60,887 nucleotides of DNA from an uncultured Methylophaga sp. (GTDB lineage Bacteria; Pseudomonadota; Gammaproteobacteria; Nitrosococcales; Methylophagaceae), in assembly GCA_913055695.1 (NCBI GenBank), contig CAJXKF010000010.1, positions 1-60,887 on the forward strand, given 5' to 3'. A program made the position numbers and the translations under genes. Shown here in pieces: positions 2,266 to 46,166 of the stretch (its first letter is position 1; every line of letters starts with the position of its first letter). Under the pieces are notes generated by a model. It was not told where the DNA came from and searched no databases. It saw only the letters and a list, made by a program, of their open reading frames with translations.

Positions 2266-3654
2266 TCAGCGTAACCCTTCGATCAGACGTAACATTGCCG
2301 CAGCTTTATCATGCACTTCCTGATATTCAGCCCCGGCCTCTGAATCCTTTACGATACCACCTCCGGCCCAGAAGCGCAGCCTGTTATCGCTTAACACCAG
2401 CGTACGGATAGTGATGTTGCTGTCCATATTGCCGTCAAAACCAATATAACCGATGCTGCCGCAATAGATGCCGCGACGGTTAGGTTCCAGCTCTTCAATG
2501 ATTTCCATCGCCCGCAGCTTGGGCGCGCCGGTGATGGAACCACCGGGGAAGCAGGCTCTCAGCAGAGTAACGGCAGATTGGTCTTCAGCCAAGGTGCCGG
2601 TGATAGTGCTGACCAGGTGGTGCACTGTGGCAAAACTTTCCAGTGCAAATGGTTTGGGCACACGGATAGTGCCTGCCTTGCACACTTTACCCAGATCATT
2701 ACGCAATAAATCGACAATCATCAGGTTCTCGGCCCTGTCTTTGACGCTACTCTGCAGGTCACGGGCTAAAGCCTGGTCTTTGTCAGTGTCGGTCAAATCG
2801 CGGGGGCGGGTCCCTTTAATCGGCTTGGTTTCTACCTGTCCATCATGAACCTGCAGCAAGCGTTCCGGCGATGAACTCATGACGGTCACCTCGCCAGTGC
2901 TGAAATAGGCGGAAAACGGCGCGGCATTCTGTTGCCGTAATCGGCGGTAGGCAAACCAGGGATCGCCCTCTGCCGCAATTTCGAAACGTTTAGCCAGATT
3001 GACCTGATAGCAGTCGCCTTCAGTGATGTAGTGCTGGATGCGGTTGAAAGCGAGGCTGTAGTCGTTTTTACTCAGGTTGCAGCGAAGTTCCCCCCGGACG
3101 CTGAAAGCGGTCTGATCCTGACCTGTTTCATCAGTATCAGTAAACAAGGCCACCAGTTCAGACCATTTTTCTGCGGTTTGCGGAGCCTGAGCGAAACTCG
3201 CCAGCCAGCAGCGTTGCAGCTGGTGATCGGTCAGGATGGCCCAGTCATAAATGCCCACAGCCATATCCGGGATTTGTTCTGCATCCACTGCTGTTACAGG
3301 CAGGCTTTCAATGCGTCGACCCAGATCATAAGCAAAATAACCGATGGCACCGCCGGCAAAGGGTAAGTCAGTCATCGGTTGCTGATAGCGGTTTAGCAAG
3401 TCATCAAGCAGTGTGAATGGATCTTCAGTGCTTGTTTCGCTGCCTGCCCCCTTGTTTATCAGGGTTTGCTCGCCACGGCATTCCAGCGTGATAAAGGGAT
3501 CAGCGGCAATAATGTCGTAGCGCCCCGCAGGCAGGGCGGTATTGGCACTATCGAGAAACACCGGCCAGTGACGCTGTCGCAGTTGACGAAAATAGCGCTC
3601 GCTGTCACCAGGATAGGGCAGTTCAACACAAAGCGGTGGAAGTGTCAGGCTCAT
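2266..3654 (-). CDS. pabB: Aminodeoxychorismate synthase component I
   Basis: This 462-residue chorismate-binding enzyme makes 4-amino-4-deoxychorismate from chorismate and ammonia, on the route to p-aminobenzoate. The motif PIKGTRPR separates PabB from anthranilate synthase TrpE, which has PIAGT. The C-terminal catalytic signatures FPGGSITGAPK and RGIYCGSIGYI are present. pabA and pabC are not in the window. pabB sits inside the methanofuran-type gene run, 2 bp before mfnE and 9 bp after mfnF. p-Aminobenzoate is the arylamine used by beta-RFAP synthase in tetrahydromethanopterin synthesis as well as in folate, so co-transcription with C1-carrier genes makes sense. That link is an inference. 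Confidence 0.92.
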   Translation of the reverse strand: MSLTLPPLCVELPYPGDSERYFRQLRQRHWPVFLDSANTALPAGRYDIIAADPFITLECRGEQTLINKGAGSETSTEDPFTLLDDLLNRYQQPMTDLPFAGGAIGYFAYDLGRRIESLPVTAVDAEQIPDMAVGIYDWAILTDHQLQRCWLASFAQAPQTAEKWSELVALFTDTDETGQDQTAFSVRGELRCNLSKNDYSLAFNRIQHYITEGDCYQVNLAKRFEIAAEGDPWFAYRRLRQQNAAPFSAYFSTGEVTVMSSSPERLLQVHDGQVETKPIKGTRPRDLTDTDKDQALARDLQSSVKDRAENLMIVDLLRNDLGKVCKAGTIRVPKPFALESFATVHHLVSTITGTLAEDQSAVTLLRACFPGGSITGAPKLRAMEIIEELEPNRRGIYCGSIGYIGFDGNMDSNITIRTLVLSDNRLRFWAGGGIVKDSEAGAEYQEVHDKAAAMLRLIEGLR

Positions 3655-3663
3655 CCGTCTATT

Positions 3664-4698
3664 TTACGATAACTGCTGCGCTGCCAGAAGGGCCAGCGCA
3701 GCGGCCGGCGCATGGTCCGCCGCCGCAGGCTGAGACTGACACAGACTGGCGAAATCGATATACGGTCGATTCAGCCTTTTTGCCACTATTTCGGTGATAA
3801 AACGACCGACACCGGCACCAATGAGCGGGCTGTCATGGACTTGCGGCTGGACCGACATCACTTGCAGACAGGCTTCAGTGATGCGTTGTAACTGTTTTTC
3901 AGCAAACCACTGAGCGGCGATTTGCCATTGCGCGTCACTGGCATCATCTGCATCGGTAGCCAGCATTCTGGCCAGTCGCTGGCGGCAATAGCTCGCTGTC
4001 CAGGGCAGGCCATCAGCACTACTGTCCTGAATATGGCTTGCATTCAGTTTTCCCAGCAAGCACCAGATATCGGCTGTACTGGCAAACCATTCAGCGGTCA
4101 GCGGGACTTTGACGCCATGTAATGGAGCAACTGTCGACAGGGCCATCAATGGTGTACGGATAGCACCGGTGTACACCAGACTGCCACTCAGCTGGCGTTG
4201 ATGATCGCTGAGGCCCAAAGGTCGCAGTTGATGGGATGAAAAAGGGACGATATCGCAAGTGGTGCTGCCGATATCGATAAATAAACCGCTCTCTGTCTGA
4301 CTGGCGGTAAAAGCAGCACTGGCCAGCCAGTTCATTGAGGCCACGGCCTGCCAGTTGCTTTTGGCCTGCTCGGGTTCAAGCCAGCCCTGCTCGCCAGCAT
4401 AAAGATGACAGTTTGCTACAGGCAGTAAACGGGTAACACAATCGATAATGGCATTGACGCCTTCACGGCGATGTTGGAAGGCATCAACCAGCTCACCGGT
4501 CATGGTGATAGCGTGCCTGTCAGCGGCGCAGTCCAGACTATCGATGGCCTGTTTCATTGATAATTGCAGTTCTTCAATGCCGCGCCACAGTGCACAGGGT
4601 AACTGAATGACCTGTTGCAGTCGGCCATTTCTATCACATCGGGCGACTTTAAGATGTGCACCGCCGATATCCCATCCGCAAAATCCGGGTTGTTTCAA
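3664..4698 (-). CDS. mfnF: Hydantoinase/oxoprolinase-like H4MPT-linked C1 pathway protein, MfnF-like
   Basis: This 344-residue protein carries an ASKHA-type fold: an N-terminal GWDIGGAHLK, an ITMTGELVDAF segment and the phosphate-binding LFIDIGSTTCDIVPF near residue 140. It matches the family annotated as H4MPT-linked C1 transfer pathway protein. The characterised methanogen member, MfnF, condenses the furan diphosphate with gamma-glutamyltyramine. No ATG is available near the N-terminus. The frame starts at TTG, preceded by a good AGAGGA ribosome site 5 bp away, so TTG is the likely start. The upstream ligase stop lies 1 bp before it. Confidence 0.75.
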   Translation of the reverse strand: MKQPGFCGWDIGGAHLKVARCDRNGRLQQVIQLPCALWRGIEELQLSMKQAIDSLDCAADRHAITMTGELVDAFQHRREGVNAIIDCVTRLLPVANCHLYAGEQGWLEPEQAKSNWQAVASMNWLASAAFTASQTESGLFIDIGSTTCDIVPFSSHQLRPLGLSDHQRQLSGSLVYTGAIRTPLMALSTVAPLHGVKVPLTAEWFASTADIWCLLGKLNASHIQDSSADGLPWTASYCRQRLARMLATDADDASDAQWQIAAQWFAEKQLQRITEACLQVMSVQPQVHDSPLIGAGVGRFITEIVAKRLNRPYIDFASLCQSQPAAADHAPAAALALLAAQQLS

Positions 4699-4699
4699 T

Positions 4700-5659
4700 T
4701 TAATCCTCTTTAAGAAATGGCTTCAGGTATTGTGCCGGATTCGCGTCTTGTCTCAATGCCGACTCGGCATAGGAAACCGTCAGTCTTGGGTTAATTTCAA
4801 TCAACCAGAGTGCATCAGCAGTCTGCACCAGATCAATACCGACAAAACCCCACAGTCCCGGAATCGTAGCATGAATCTGCCGGGTCAGATGGCTGACAAG
4901 CTCAGGAATTACTAGATCCTCGCGACTGGCTTCGCAATACGCAAGATGTAGTTGATGCTCAGACTCATTGATATGCTGCCTGTTCACTGACAAAAGATGG
5001 ATGTCTTGTCCTGTAACAAAGAGACTTAGACTGAGAGCTGTGCCTTCGATAAATGGCTGAACTATGCGTTTTTCAAGGTCCAAAGTAGAGAGTGAGTTGA
5101 GATAGCTGATGGCGGCCTGAGTTGGTAATTTATAAGTCTGCTCGCAGCCGGCACCATCACGCGGCTTAATAATCCAATCAGCTTGTTTACCTGAATGGAT
5201 TGACGCCAGCCAGTCAGGCGCTGTCTGTGTTTCCGGTGTGAGAATGGTGTTTTCAATCAGCCATTGGCTGCATTTGAGCTTGTCAGTACAAAGGGCAATC
5301 GTTGAAGCCTGACAACCCAGATGCTGTTTGTGCTGCTCATCAACTTGATTGACCAATTGTTCCAGCAGGCCATCGGTTTCAGGCGCAATCAACAGAAACC
5401 GCTCGTAATGCTCAAGACTTTGCTGCCAGTACTGCCGGTAACTCTCCGGGGTGTCGACCACCAACACGGAGATCCTGCCGGTCGGGTCATCCAGCTGCGG
5501 CAAACGGCTGTCACGCATGAGCGTGAGATGACAGTCCAGCGCAAGCAGATCATGACAAAGGGCTTTGAGCATCGCGTCACCCTCACGCAGCAGTGAGGCT
5601 GAAATAGCCTCACCGATCATTGCACCGCTGGTAAGATGTTCGTAGATAAATAGCGTCAT
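4700..5659 (-). CDS. mfnD: ATP-grasp ligase, MfnD-like (tyramine/tyrosine-glutamate ligase)
   Basis: This 319-residue ATP-grasp enzyme has an N-terminal pre-grasp domain, the lysine and glycine-rich region WIIKPRDGAGCEQ near residue 165, and the metal-binding C-terminal GFVGIDLV...LIEINPRLTVSYAE. In methanogens MfnD joins glutamate to tyramine in methanofuran synthesis. Its place as the first gene of a run with MfnF-, MfnE- and MfnA-like proteins supports a parallel role here. The gene is divergent from the HisA-like gene, and the shared 80 bp region holds an inverted repeat. The ATP-grasp assignment is firm and the substrate is inferred. Confidence 0.72.
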   Translation of the reverse strand: MTLFIYEHLTSGAMIGEAISASLLREGDAMLKALCHDLLALDCHLTLMRDSRLPQLDDPTGRISVLVVDTPESYRQYWQQSLEHYERFLLIAPETDGLLEQLVNQVDEQHKQHLGCQASTIALCTDKLKCSQWLIENTILTPETQTAPDWLASIHSGKQADWIIKPRDGAGCEQTYKLPTQAAISYLNSLSTLDLEKRIVQPFIEGTALSLSLFVTGQDIHLLSVNRQHINESEHQLHLAYCEASREDLVIPELVSHLTRQIHATIPGLWGFVGIDLVQTADALWLIEINPRLTVSYAESALRQDANPAQYLKPFLKED

Positions 5660-42582: not shown

Positions 42583-43212
42583 CTAATTCATTGCCCTCTC
42601 TTGTAGCTGGTTGGCGAAGTCGTGATTGACGTCACGGTGTTTTGCTTCATCATCCCGCACTACCTGAATCACATCGCGCAGTCTCGCGTCAGGAGAGAGC
42701 TGCCAGTAATCAATTGCAATCTGAGGGGCAGCTACATTCTCGTATTTACCATTGTCTACCCCTTCAAGATATTCGGTATAGCTGTAGACAGCCTCTTCTT
42801 CAAGATAACCGACGATACGGTGAGCGACGCGTGATGAACAAAGGTAAAGCAGGAAAAACAGATTGTAAAACACGCCCTGCGCGATAATGACAATGATGCG
42901 TTCAACCAGACTGGGTTTGGCGATTTGAATAAAAGTCAGCAGATGCATGCGCTCATTTTCCGCCTCTTCCAGTAAGGTCTTAATCCAGCCATCATCATCT
43001 TTCATTTTTCTCAGTGAACGAAGATGCTGCAGGGCACCGCCAACCATGCCCGGTACGGCGGCCACTGTCTCCAGTACCACGGCCCGGTGACCATAACGAC
43101 CAGCAAAGAAGGCATCGGCAAAAAAACGCATAAATCTGACAATACGGTAAGCCAGCCGGTCAGAGAAATAGCGAGTCTCATGGTGTGGCGGATGCTGGTA
43201 ATCTTCTGCCAT
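42583..43212 (-). CDS. aox: Alternative oxidase (di-iron ubiquinol oxidase)
   Basis: AOX passes electrons from quinol straight to oxygen without pumping protons and is cyanide-insensitive. From the ATG at 43212 it has 209 residues with all AOX iron ligands: E48 in [15 protein letters not shown]87 and H90 in [10 protein letters not shown]139/E140 in [13 protein letters not shown], and E189 and H192 in [12 protein letters not shown]. Two hydrophobic helices (about 47-61 and 104-125) anchor it to the membrane. The frame runs on to 43329 inside mscL, but those residues are not AOX-like. AOX is rare in bacteria and occurs mostly in marine species. Confidence 0.9.
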
Positions 43213-43256
43213 GTCTTTTCTGATGAGGCGTGTCGAATGGACTGTAGACCTGGGTA

Positions 43257-43706
43257 TCAGGCAATCTCGGAAGTGCAGTGCGGGCAGCGGGTTGCTTTGA
43301 TAGAGACCGAACTGAAGCAGAACTGACAATCCTTGGTGGTTGGCTCTGCCGGTGGCGCATCCTCTTCACGGCGCAGGCGGTTGATGCTTCGAATCAGCAG
43401 AAAAACAGCAAAAGCGACAATCAGAAAACTGATAACGGCATTGATAAAGACACCATAGCTAATGACAACCGCACCAGCCTCCTGAGCAGCGGCAAGTGTC
43501 GCATACGGCGCGGCGGTGCTACCTTCTTTGAGCATGATAAACAGATCAGTAAAGTCGACACCGCCCAGTAATAAACCGATTGGGGGCATGATTACATCGG
43601 CTACCAGGCTTTTGACGATGGTGGCAAAGGCACCGCCAATGATAATCCCCACTGCCATATCGACGACATTGCCACGCATGGCAAATTCTTTGAATTCCTT
43701 CAGCAT
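43257..43706 (-). CDS. mscL: Large-conductance mechanosensitive channel with C-terminal zinc ribbon
   Basis: MscL opens under membrane tension to relieve hypo-osmotic stress. The 149-residue protein has [44 protein letters not shown], a periplasmic loop and the second helix [19 protein letters not shown]. The usual cytoplasmic helix bundle is replaced by a linker and a C127xxC130...C141PHC144 zinc-ribbon motif. I use the ATG at 43706 with AAGGAG upstream; the frame's TTG at 43712 is not needed. The alternative oxidase follows 44 bp downstream. Confidence 0.93.
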
Positions 43707-43848
43707 GCTCAACTCTCCTTTAAGTCAGACCTGATGTGCTTTGTAACCCGGTTCAGGTTTTGGTGCACAATACAGCTCGCACCATGCCGGATAAACAACA
43801 CAGATAGGGCCGATATTAGTCACGGCATCATAGCCTTGTCCAGTCAAA

Positions 43849-44208: not shown

Positions 44209-45210
44209 CTACTGATAAAGCGGACACTGTGGGACTTCACACTGACCCGCAGGCAGATCACGTTTGCCGACAATTTCCTTGAGACTGTCGTCGAGATTCT
44301 GATCATCGGGCGACAATCTGACGGCACAGCCAATCGCCTTGATAGCGCCTACGCGGCACTGACGTGCAGTCAGCACATAGGCGAGGTTATTCCAGGCCTG
44401 CGCATTGTCAGGCTGATTGCTGATAGCGCGAGTGAAAGCGGCCTGGGCTGCTTCAAAGTCTTTTTTTGCATAAAGGGCATTACCTAGCGTCATCTGCGGC
44501 AGTGCCTGGTCAGGCCAGTAGTCACTGGCGGTGTTAAAGGCCTGCATGGCGGCTTTTTCATGGCCTGATTGCATCAGTGCCACGGCACTGCGGCTGTATT
44601 CAACAACATTGGCCGTCACCGGTACTTCATCGGGGGGGACCATTACATAAGCCCAGTGATCGGCACGTTGCCAGGTCCGCTCAAAGGTCGAAAACGGCAC
44701 CAGGTGACGCTTGCTGGTGCCGGAGCGCAGAATGAGTTGTTGCTGATTAAGGTCATAGCCTACGACAACAGCATAATGCCATTGCGGTACCCACTTAAGC
44801 GCCAGATTCTGAAACACCAGCACAGGCCGGCCTGAAGCCACTTCCCTGAGTATGTCCCCGAGATTATTGGCGAGTTTGTAGCTAAGCAGATCATAGCTGC
44901 GCGCGGTGGCAATCATTTCAATTTGCAGACTGCCTTTGCGCGCCGGGATATAGACTTTGTCGACCAGATCATCTGGCCTGACATCAATATTCTGGTGTGT
45001 CAGCACGGTAGCCAGTGCGGCTGGTCCACACTGATATTTTTCCTGCGGAAAAAAAGCCACCTCAGTTAATTCATGGCTGGGAGGAATACCCGCCGGCGGC
45101 TGACTGCTGAGCCGGTTGGTTTGCGGCGTGCCCGCACAGGCGCTGAGTAACAGTACAAAAAAAGCGCCAGACAGAAGTCTGACGCTTTTTCCGGGATTAT
45201 AACGTTGCAT
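44209..45210 (-). CDS. PA2778-family C39-like cysteine peptidase lipoprotein with TPR
   Basis: From the ATG at 45210 this is a 333-residue lipoprotein with lipobox LLSAC (lipid Cys 25). A C39-like papain-fold domain has the nucleophile in YQCGPAALATVL (C61) and His in QWHYAVVVGYD (about H145). A C-terminal TPR region covers about 210-305 (MTLGNALYAKKDFEAAQAAFTRAI). The combination is that of the PA2778 family, a neighbour of PA2779-type proteins, and the pairing is repeated here. Substrate is unknown. No ABC or exporter domain is fused, unlike bacteriocin-processing C39 transporters. A terminator-like hairpin lies inside its signal-peptide codons. Confidence 0.85.
   Translation of the reverse strand: MQRYNPGKSVRLLSGAFFVLLLSACAGTPQTNRLSSQPPAGIPPSHELTEVAFFPQEKYQCGPAALATVLTHQNIDVRPDDLVDKVYIPARKGSLQIEMIATARSYDLLSYKLANNLGDILREVASGRPVLVFQNLALKWVPQWHYAVVVGYDLNQQQLILRSGTSKRHLVPFSTFERTWQRADHWAYVMVPPDEVPVTANVVEYSRSAVALMQSGHEKAAMQAFNTASDYWPDQALPQMTLGNALYAKKDFEAAQAAFTRAISNQPDNAQAWNNLAYVLTARQCRVGAIKAIGCAVRLSPDDQNLDDSLKEIVGKRDLPAGQCEVPQCPLYQ
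45157..45190 (-). terminator. Terminator-like hairpin inside the start of the PA2778-like gene
   Basis: In the minus-strand RNA a 14-bp stem (AAAAAGCG, one G-U wobble, CAGAC) with loop UUCU is followed by a U run. It covers codons of the signal peptide, 20 to 53 bp past the ATG. Read as RNA it is a good intrinsic terminator, so it could lower expression of the peptidase relative to the two small proteins before it. Confidence 0.55.
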
Positions 45211-45211
45211 C

Positions 45212-45610
45212 TTAATGATTAATGTCGTGGACGAAACCGAATACATTGGTGGCACCTAACATATCAGTCACCACAAGCACGACAAAAATAACCAGCAGGG
45301 CGCCAATGATGCCGCTACCTGCCGGCATTTGTTCGAATTCCTGTTGCAACTGGGCCAGTTCCTGATGATTCATTTGCTGGATCCGTTGTTTGGCATCATC
45401 AATATTGACGCCAGCGGCAACCAGTTTGTCCTGAACTTCCTGCTTATCGAGTTCACTCAGTATCTGAGTTTTGGTGATTTCCTGTTGTGTACTGGCCAGT
45501 AGCTGATCATTGTCTACCATCGCTGCTTGCAGCGGGGCAGTATGGATGCTCAGCAAGGCCAGAATTGAGAGGATGGGTACTACTTTTCCAAGGCGTCTGA
45601 AGAAATTCAT
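45212..45610 (-). CDS. PA2779-family small membrane protein, copy 1
   Basis: The 132-residue protein has a signal peptide ending LQAA and a charged helical middle (about 40-95: EVQDKLVAAGVNIDDAKQRI). A C-terminal membrane helix (IIGALLVIFVVLVVTDMLGA) precedes the invariant tail VFGFVHDINH. It is about 60% identical by eye to the copy at 45765, most strongly at the C-terminus. A strong AAAGGAG site precedes the ATG. The PA2778-like peptidase starts 1 bp after its stop, so they are coupled. It is a candidate substrate or partner of that peptidase. Confidence 0.85.
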   Translation of the reverse strand: MNFFRRLGKVVPILSILALLSIHTAPLQAAMVDNDQLLASTQQEITKTQILSELDKQEVQDKLVAAGVNIDDAKQRIQQMNHQELAQLQQEFEQMPAGSGIIGALLVIFVVLVVTDMLGATNVFGFVHDINH

Positions 45611-45630
45611 AAATACTCCTTTTCCAAGAG

Positions 45631-45666
45631 TTGGACTATACGGAGTTAAAAATCCGTATAGTCCAA
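45631..45666 (-). other. Perfect 14-bp stem-loop in the leader of PA2779 copy 1
   Basis: Arms TTGGACTATACGGA and TCCGTATAGTCCAA are exact complements with an 8-nt A/T loop. It lies 20 bp before the start codon region and just before the ribosome site. No U-tract follows, so it is not a terminator. RNA processing, mRNA stability or a regulator site are possible. Confidence 0.7.
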
Positions 45667-45764
45667 AGTTAACAAAAGCTTAAGTCGATTGCGAGAATAA
45701 TTAAGTCAGCCAACAGCCACGCTGATTGCCTGACATGAATGGCACTGCTAATGAAGGTCCTCGT

Positions 45765-46166
45765 TTAGTGATTGATATCGTGGACAAAGCCAAAGACGTC
45801 GGTGGCGCCGAGCATGTCGGTCACGACCAGGACAATGAATATGACCAGAATCGCACCGATGATATGACCGCTACCTGCGGGCAGGTTGTCGAAGTCCTGA
45901 GCGACTTGAGCAAGCTCCTGCTCTGTCATCTGATTGATCCTCTGTTTGGCGGTGTCTATATCCACACCCATTGCCACCAGACGATCCTGGACATCCTGTC
46001 GATCGAGTTCAGCCAGGATGTCCTGCTTACTCATTTCAATCTGGGACTGGGCTATAAGTTGACTGTTATCGACCATGGCTGCCTGAAGCGGAGCAATGTT
46101 CATACTGAACAGGGCCAGTATCGACAGCATGGGAACGAGCTTGTTGAAACGTCTGAAGAAATTCAT
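45765..46166 (-). CDS. PA2779-family small membrane protein, copy 2
   Basis: The 133-residue paralogue of the downstream protein has a signal peptide ending LQAA, the helical middle DRQDVQDRLVAMGVDIDTAKQRI, then PAGSG before the helix IIGAILVIFIVLVVTDMLGA and the tail DVFGFVHDINH. The two copies lie in tandem with a 154-bp gap that holds a perfect hairpin. AGGAGAG lies before the ATG. Two copies in one genome locus suggest that they form a pair or a recent duplication. Confidence 0.85.
   Translation of the reverse strand: MNFFRRFNKLVPMLSILALFSMNIAPLQAAMVDNSQLIAQSQIEMSKQDILAELDRQDVQDRLVAMGVDIDTAKQRINQMTEQELAQVAQDFDNLPAGSGHIIGAILVIFIVLVVTDMLGATDVFGFVHDINH

Follow-up and report, generated by a model that had tools for sequence, protein, structure and literature searches.

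PA2779-family proteins and the C39-like lipoprotein PA2778: a conserved gene pair, probably of substrate and peptidase, viewed from a Methylophaga contig

Organization of the locus

The stretch analysed here, referred to as the window, comprises 60,887 nucleotides of an uncultured Methylophaga sp. (GenBank assembly GCA_913055695.1, contig CAJXKF010000010.1) and contains on its minus strand a run of three open reading frames (ORFs): two PA2779-like genes in tandem (copies A and B), followed by a gene of the PA2778 type (Table 1). An earlier note, made from the letters of the stretch, had read this unit as two tandem PA2779 proteins with a lipoprotein carrying a C39-like peptidase domain and tetratricopeptide repeats (TPR), which is borne out by matches to NF033919/PF20332, NF033920, C39 and TPR profiles. 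Both PA2779 copies score above the curated cut-offs of NF033919 (cut-off 40) and PF20332 (DUF6627), and they are identical at 96 of 132 aligned residues. The PA2778 protein reaches 354.3 bits against NF033920 (cut-off 150; profile positions 1-255 of 255), and its Pfam matches above the gathering score are to C39 and TPR only, with 47.7 bits for PF13529 (C39_2, cut-off 24) and 28.8 bits for PF03412 (C39, cut-off 22). Its ATG lies at 45210, 1 base past the TAA of copy B; a 348-aa ORF beginning with GTG at 45255 is an over-extended version of the same gene and was set aside in favour of the 333-aa ORF.

Table 1. Positions of the unit's genes and features in the window
Feature	Position	Strand	Support
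PA2779-family upstream tandem copy (copy A), 133 aa	45765-46166	-	NF033919 125.6 bits, PF20332 133.7 bits
PA2779-family downstream copy (copy B), 132 aa	45212-45610	-	NF033919 121.4 bits, PF20332 125 bits
Parts of copy B in order: signal peptide, helical domain, PAGSG, membrane helix, tail	45212-45610	-	
Lipoprotein of the PA2778 family, 333 aa: signal peptide (lipobox Cys25), C39-like domain at about residues 44-197, TPR domain	44209-45210	-	
Cys61 codon, catalytic	45028-45030	-	kept in all 130 distinct paired sequences and in none of 46 unpaired ones
His145 codon, catalytic	44776-44778	-	kept in all 130 distinct paired sequences and in 2 of 46 unpaired ones
Gln56 codon, probable Gln of the oxyanion hole (putative role)	45043-45045	-	kept in all 130 distinct paired sequences and in 2 of 46 unpaired ones
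TPR-like helical repeats of PA2778 (model residues 202-314)	44269-44607	-	Pfam TPR matches, model helices, TPR structures in fold search
L/M-x3-E-L segment, copy B residues 80-85, candidate recognition helix	45356-45373	-	PA2779 alignment
PAGSG junction of copy B, candidate cleavage site	45311-45325	-	PA2779 alignment (cleavage putative)
PAGSG junction of copy A, candidate cleavage site	45867-45881	-	alignment of copies
Perfect inverted repeat of 12 bp in the gap between copies A and B, upstream of copy B	45633-45664	.	RNA fold z = -5.0

Co-occurrence and adjacency of the two families

Profile-based searches covered a phylum sample (398 genomes) and a Pseudomonas_E sample (199 genomes), with 7 genomes shared. 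In the phylum sample, PA2779 exceeds its cut-off in 40 genomes with 43 genes, and all 43 genes are followed downstream, on the same strand, by a PA2778 gene above cut-off. PA2779 matches below cut-off (one in G269, a second in G044) were dropped there, and at most 6 PA2778 candidates were scored per genome; matches to NF033920 at E <= 0.001 occur in 386 of the 398 genomes, and the weak ones listed, mostly to the TPR end, were not counted. The only other genome of this sample with PA2778 above cut-off, G261 (presumably a Pseudomonas_E), has a short degenerate copy. Neither family exceeds its cut-off in 14 control genomes. Of the 199 Pseudomonas_E genomes, 25 have PA2779 above cut-off and 24 have full-length PA2778; all 24 full pairs are adjacent. 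Full-length PA2778 without PA2779 was found in no genome of either sample, and the PA2779-negative genomes (358 and 174, respectively) contain no PA2778 match above 166 bits.

Further sets of genomes gave the same picture. Among 18 chosen genomes, full-length PA2778 is present in 9 of 10 newly counted PA2779-positive ones (in G650 the PA2779 gene is truncated where the contig stops) and in none of the 5 PA2779-negative genomes of the window's genus, the remaining 3 being Pseudomonas_E genomes already counted in that sample. A class sample contained 66 PA2779-positive genomes, 11 of them already covered by the other sets; PA2778 was sought in 40 of the remaining 55, where it is full-length in 39 and, in G813, adjacent but split by a frameshift. 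Without double counting, full-length PA2778 thus accompanies PA2779 in 110 of 113 genomes (exceptions G517, G650 and G813), a total that leaves out 15 class-sample and 10 window-genus PA2779-positive genomes. The earlier note had named PA2779 occurring mostly without the peptidase as the outcome that would speak against its interpretation, and the survey found the opposite. The two genes also adjoin in G656 and G659, in loci with large antisense ORFs.

Among public contigs, PA2779 adjoins PA2778 at 80 of 80 loci (the best 80 of 545 confirmed), a figure that arises partly by construction, since the search patterns included catalytic residues. The closest PA2778 among the matches listed is that of a Methylophaga metagenome-assembled genome (L063, 75% identity). 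Leaving aside ORFs antisense to the pair, the most widespread third gene family among the 22 clusters listed extends to 23 of the 80 loci, and none of the 80 contains a natural PA2779-PA2778 fusion. The pairing is near-obligatory across many families. That two genes of unrelated function merely share a coincidentally conserved synteny is highly improbable, as no combination other than this pair is kept in all 80 loci and the pairing persists over so many families.

The locus L160 (G113:C319, about 3617-5657) encodes, judged by eye, an exported helical protein of 296 aa with membrane segments at its C-terminal end and then a lipoprotein in which the order is reversed, with the TPR part ahead of the C39 domain. 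The arrangement suggests an analogous, rearranged pair, such that the partnership may exist in more than one form.

Catalytic residues and fold of PA2778

Concerning the active site, Cys61 and a His at about position 145 had been proposed as catalytic, and both positions proved exact. The catalytic Cys and His, and likewise the Gln, are kept in all 132 paired PA2778 rows (130 distinct sequences). In a later alignment of 50 rows, all three residues are kept in 44; the departing six are L336 (counted already, as L260), L337, L338 and L398, all unpaired, the frameshifted L390, whose row does not cover the catalytic site, and the paired L401, to which we return below.

The AlphaFold model of PA2778 (333 residues) has a mean predicted local distance difference test (pLDDT) value of 95.3 and a predicted template modelling score (pTM) of 0.89. 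In a fold search it matches the C39-like structure 3erv (Z 16.6, 2.2 Å, 151 residues), the ComA peptidase 3k8u (Z 15.4, 2.1 Å, 133 residues), LahT150 with leader peptide 6mpz (Z 15.3, 2.4 Å, 135 residues) and PCAT1 (Z 14.7); PeiR, phytochelatin synthase and TPR chains match as well. A C39 profile search at sequence level found 3erv (E 2.3e-5), ComA (E 0.009) and LahT (E 0.02). The C39 domain of PA2778 is thus predicted to be ComA/LahT-like, with a papain-like fold.

Copies of PA2778 without PA2779

In Pseudomonas_E, NF033920 is matched at E <= 1e-15 in 192 of the 199 genomes, namely the 24 with a full pair and 168 with a weaker match only. Of about 170 copies without PA2779 in this sample, 40 were aligned (the 20 best not yet included and 20 from farther down the list), which together with 6 from the phylum sample gives 46 unpaired copies; L337, L338 and L398 were added later. 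The stretches with degenerate copies (L256-L295) are about 1.1 kb long, and the non-adjacency of PA2779 follows from the genome-wide search, complemented for some by a wider refetch. The lipobox Cys is kept in all 46 copies and the catalytic Cys in none (Ser in 30, Gly in 16), while His and Gln remain in 2 each, and most of these rows are gapped over the later TPR columns. Altogether, the catalytic Cys is found in 0 of 49 PA2778-like copies without adjacent PA2779. Forty-eight of these come from one genus; the other, L398 (genome G785), belongs to another family and has kept its TPR part and His but lost the catalytic Cys. Loss of PA2779 is thus accompanied by loss of the catalytic Cys, while the lipoprotein is retained; the Cys loss represents at least two independent events, not 49.

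Of 19 stretches with a degenerate copy, 11 have a conserved oxidoreductase gene next to it, followed in 7 of them by thrS and infC. This oxidoreductase gene also comes after active pairs, namely in 8 of 14 further Pseudomonas-group loci and in G190 and G531, and thrS and infC lie near the active pair in 12 of the 14. The remaining 8 stretches have folD, pbpG, TerC or RND neighbours or none that was recognised. Two genomes (G424, G488) possess a degenerate copy at the oxidoreductase locus plus an active pair elsewhere.

The median ratio of non-synonymous to synonymous substitution rates is 0.149 for degenerate copies (28 close pairs) versus 0.085 for active ones (23 pairs), which indicates purifying selection on the degenerate genes. 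The copies L256-L295, L143-L148, L337 and L338 constitute a conserved pseudo-peptidase lipoprotein of Pseudomonas under such selection. A fold that is useful without catalysis would suit a stable envelope complex of PA2778 and PA2779, in which the C39 domain mainly binds, like the degenerate C39-like domains of some ATP-binding cassette (ABC) transporters, and cleavage is minor. We regard this as quite unlikely, because Cys and His are kept in every paired row alignable over the site, and the envelope complex without cleavage that the earlier note had offered as its second option is the less likely one.

Conserved features of PA2779 and the candidate cut site

Residue statistics for PA2779 refer to 122 aligned sequences, i.e., 110 of a main set and 12 of a short-tailed type B (e.g., L241-L250). 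Arg76 and Glu84 are invariant in all 122, and position 80 is always Leu or Met, so that the segment reads L/M-x3-E-L/V. Gly98 is present in 100% of the 110 main-set rows (in type B, Gly 67% and Ala 33%), Pro96 in 95% and Ala97 in 93%. As had been noticed before, PAGSG, a hydrophobic helix and the tail motif VFGFVHDINH are present in both window copies; the tail, then called invariant, varies or is missing beyond near relatives. A tail past the membrane helix with the pattern T-D-x-L-G/C-x-T-D/N-V/I-F is common, but it is absent from type B, L069 and L141 and so cannot be the universal cut site. The membrane peptide, put at about 38 residues in the earlier note, would be shorter, the piece past PAG having 34-35 residues.

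C39 leaders are described, in the portion of the source available to us, by an L-x3-E-L signature followed by a small-residue site (PMC6363468). Cleavage of PA2779 at PAGSG fits its conserved L-x3-E-L helix and PAG, and with a cut after G98 hydrophobic residues would prevail at -4 (Ala, Leu or Met) and at -7, as they do in the LahT leader. Perhaps, then, PA2779 is cut at the conserved PAG ahead of its membrane helix. It is not a double-glycine leader in the strict sense, as L/M-x3-E-L is present but spacing and site differ, and no leader family is among its NCBIfam and Pfam matches at E <= 1.

From a leader-like helix and a small-residue junction ahead of a hydrophobic core, and from a C39 fold whose near matches include leader-cutting peptidases, it might be supposed that the C-terminal piece is released as a bioactive, bacteriocin- or signal-like peptide with the helical domain as its leader. 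This is improbable: that piece has a conserved membrane-helix shape, antisense ORFs aside, no third family among the 22 clusters listed extends beyond 23 of the 80 loci, which leaves no obvious candidate for a dedicated transporter or immunity gene, and a PA2779-family gene is, according to the accessible part of the study, among those picked for strong, constitutive promoters in P. stutzeri, with a strength equal to that of the gentamicin-gene promoter (PMC10155442).

Type B genes (L241-L250, L392, L393, L395) sit away from PA2778, those of Pseudomonas_E near PHP/Sua5-like and trpS/scpA-like genes (named by eye). Type B as a PA2779 without peptidase was considered and rejected, since a search with its own profile gave no phylum-sample genome beyond those with PA2778; 9 of the 10 Pseudomonas_E genomes with type B also carry an active pair, a contrast (9/24 vs 1/175) confounded by ancestry. 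An argument by which PAG would be conserved independently of the peptidase was dropped, as type B also co-occurs with PA2778.

Multiplication of PA2779 and a model of the pair

Of 24 genomes in the window's genus, 15 have PA2779; 14 of these carry a single copy, and only the window's genome carries two. Tandem PA2779 genes ahead of one PA2778 occur in the window, in L071 (Thioalkalivibrio denitrificans), G659, G759 and G809, and additional PA2779 genes away from PA2778 in G717, G672, G760, G866 and G785; furthermore, 9 Pseudomonas_E genomes with the pair carry extra PA2779 elsewhere, all of type B. Two PA2778 genes over 200 bits exist, among the genomes listed, in G108, G112, G659 and G785. 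Each PA2778 of G108 and G112 has its own PA2779, G659 has three PA2779 genes, and one of the two PA2778 proteins of G785 lacks the Cys. PA2779 copies multiply, and the active peptidase does so rarely.

A tethered model of PA2779 and PA2778 was built for locus L108 from a 66-row alignment including 22 paired rows. It has a pLDDT of 88.9 and a pTM of 0.85 over 471 residues (peptidase alone: 0.89 over 333), with the PA2779 helical domain at pLDDT 84-95. If PA2779 floated freely, a pTM near 0.63 would be expected by a rough estimate (0.89 x 333/471), so the placement of the PA2779 domain seems confident. The fold-search list for the two-chain model, which barely probed the PA2779 part, contains no row starting in that part. 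The peptidase-PA2779 coupling proposed in the earlier note is supported by near-absolute co-occurrence, by the absence of the Cys from all examined unpaired copies and by this high-pTM model. The interpretation in the note is supported in part: the invariant tail does not hold family-wide, and PAGSG is a candidate site of cleavage.

Co-occurrence, loss of catalysis without PA2779 and predicted docking would fit a partner as well as a substrate. PA2779 could be an obligatory activator, inhibitor or membrane tether of PA2778, which would then cut another envelope protein; the same envelope has an adaptor-protease pair in LbcA-CtpA, as far as its description could be consulted. In many genomes, however, PA2779 copies outnumber the active peptidase, a pattern common among substrates and less common among stoichiometric regulators, and we consider this role unlikely, if less so than either the stable complex or the bioactive peptide.

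Proposed mechanism

The unit is real and conserved, and probably a dedicated pair of peptidase and substrate. Given that unpaired enzyme copies lack the catalytic Cys and that the pairing is near-constant, PA2779 is probably what PA2778 cuts. More specifically, that PA2779 proteins are dedicated substrates of the exported C39 peptidase PA2778, cut likeliest at the PAG junction, appears to us just on the probable side.

The PA2779-type precursors would be exported by Sec and would form a small four-helix periplasmic domain anchored by the C-terminal membrane helix, an anatomy taken from sequence and model with a putative topology. PA2778, by its lipobox presumably situated on the periplasmic side of the envelope with its predicted C39 and TPR domains, would bind the helical domain of PA2779 and then cut, likeliest at PAG between domain and membrane helix. 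The cut would separate a soluble helical domain from a hydrophobic peptide of 30-35 residues. A single peptidase may serve several PA2779 proteins, encoded in tandem, as in the window, or elsewhere in the genome.

Several observations weigh against this reading. In G517, PA2779 is accompanied only by degenerate PA2778 copies. Among paired PA2778 proteins, L401 keeps Cys and His but has Asp in place of Gln, and the one of G112:C9 contains an in-frame stop. The column of the usual triad Asp is Ser in 116 and Thr in 14 of the 130 distinct paired rows; in a weak profile alignment, the ComA Asp column falls near Ser163 of PA2778. Compared with the double-glycine leader precursor pattern L(-12)-x3-E(-8)-L(-7), the PA2779 helix lies 7 residues farther from the site, and the -2/-1 pair would be Ala-Gly, whereas double-glycine leaders have Gly-Gly, Gly-Ala or Gly-Ser. 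In the tethered model, the PAGSG and membrane-helix part has a pLDDT of only 63-75, and the pTM of tethered chains does not tell the docking surface. Finally, as the degenerate copies come from one genus and one genome, the correlation of Cys loss with absence of PA2779 has low independent replication.

In a wider and more doubtful picture, which we put forward tentatively, the pair might constitute a widespread proteobacterial envelope processing system: a Sec-exported C39 peptidase would mature Sec-exported, membrane-anchored precursors at PAG, carrying the double-glycine leader logic outside the cytosol and without ABC export, with several precursors per peptidase and with precursor loss leaving a conserved pseudo-peptidase lipoprotein. 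The unit is a common two-gene arrangement whose candidate target is evident, and it offers strong comparative evidence together with natural knock-outs of catalysis. If the proposal is true, a process can be assigned to two families of unknown function, and the conserved Pseudomonas pseudo-enzyme is explained.

Neighbourhood of the unit

The upstream flank holds an ORF on the opposite strand, which we take to be GlnE-like. Downstream lie genes for a CsaA-like tRNA-binding protein, MscL, an alternative oxidase and DUF6164; the flanks are unrelated to the unit. The MscL (43257-43712) has a C-terminal extension with four Cys (CQFC...CPHC), zinc-ribbon-like, and the alternative oxidase is situated at 42583-43329 (PF01786, 289.8 bits). 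The inverted repeat between the PA2779 copies has no second match in the window, and among fetched loci its arm recurs only in this genome's own stretches. Promoter and terminator scans gave results at about chance level.

Comparison with known systems

The window proteins are members, by curated score, of NF033920 and NF033919 (PF20332, DUF6627), named families with no function described in the literature reached, and the window unit has two PA2779 copies. No paper on the function of PA2778 or PA2779 was found in the literature searched, most subscription journals lying outside it; PA14_28250, which was not mapped to either gene, was set aside. In the accessible parts of three studies, PA2779 is noted merely as divergent from PA2780 (bswR) (PMC3985676), the PA2778 start codon is lost in P. 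aeruginosa clone CHA (PMC3697988), and some type I secretion transporters bear degenerate C39-like domains (PMC5557850). Unpaired PA2778-like lipoproteins resemble the latter, as far as that text goes, in having lost catalysis with the fold retained, but they are free lipoproteins and not transporter domains.

With the leader-cutting C39 domains of the AMS/PCAT type (ComA 3k8u, LahT150 6mpz, PCAT1), PA2778 shares the fold of the catalytic domain, and its candidate substrate has an L-x3-E-L helix ahead of a small-residue site. In contrast to them, PA2778 is a 333-aa lipoprotein not fused to an ABC transporter and without ABC or membrane domain, is exported rather than cytosolic, and has Ser or Thr near the triad Asp column.

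The nearest precedent found is FapD of the Pseudomonas Fap amyloid system, which the accessible text describes as a C39 protease of the periplasm; FapC secretion depends on its Cys, and the authors call its target unclear (PMC5557850). No fap-like gene was recognised beside the pair in the 80 loci or in the window flanks, no search for Fap families having been made. To the extent of that text, and with FapD itself not aligned, both are exported C39 cysteine peptidases with Cys and His and with exported candidate targets encoded next to them, whereas PA2778 is a lipoprotein with TPR that pairs with PA2779, and the pair has no conserved third gene. New here, relative to all these systems, are the co-occurrence numbers, the catalytic decay of unpaired copies, the recurrent multiplication of the presumed clients and the modelled pair.

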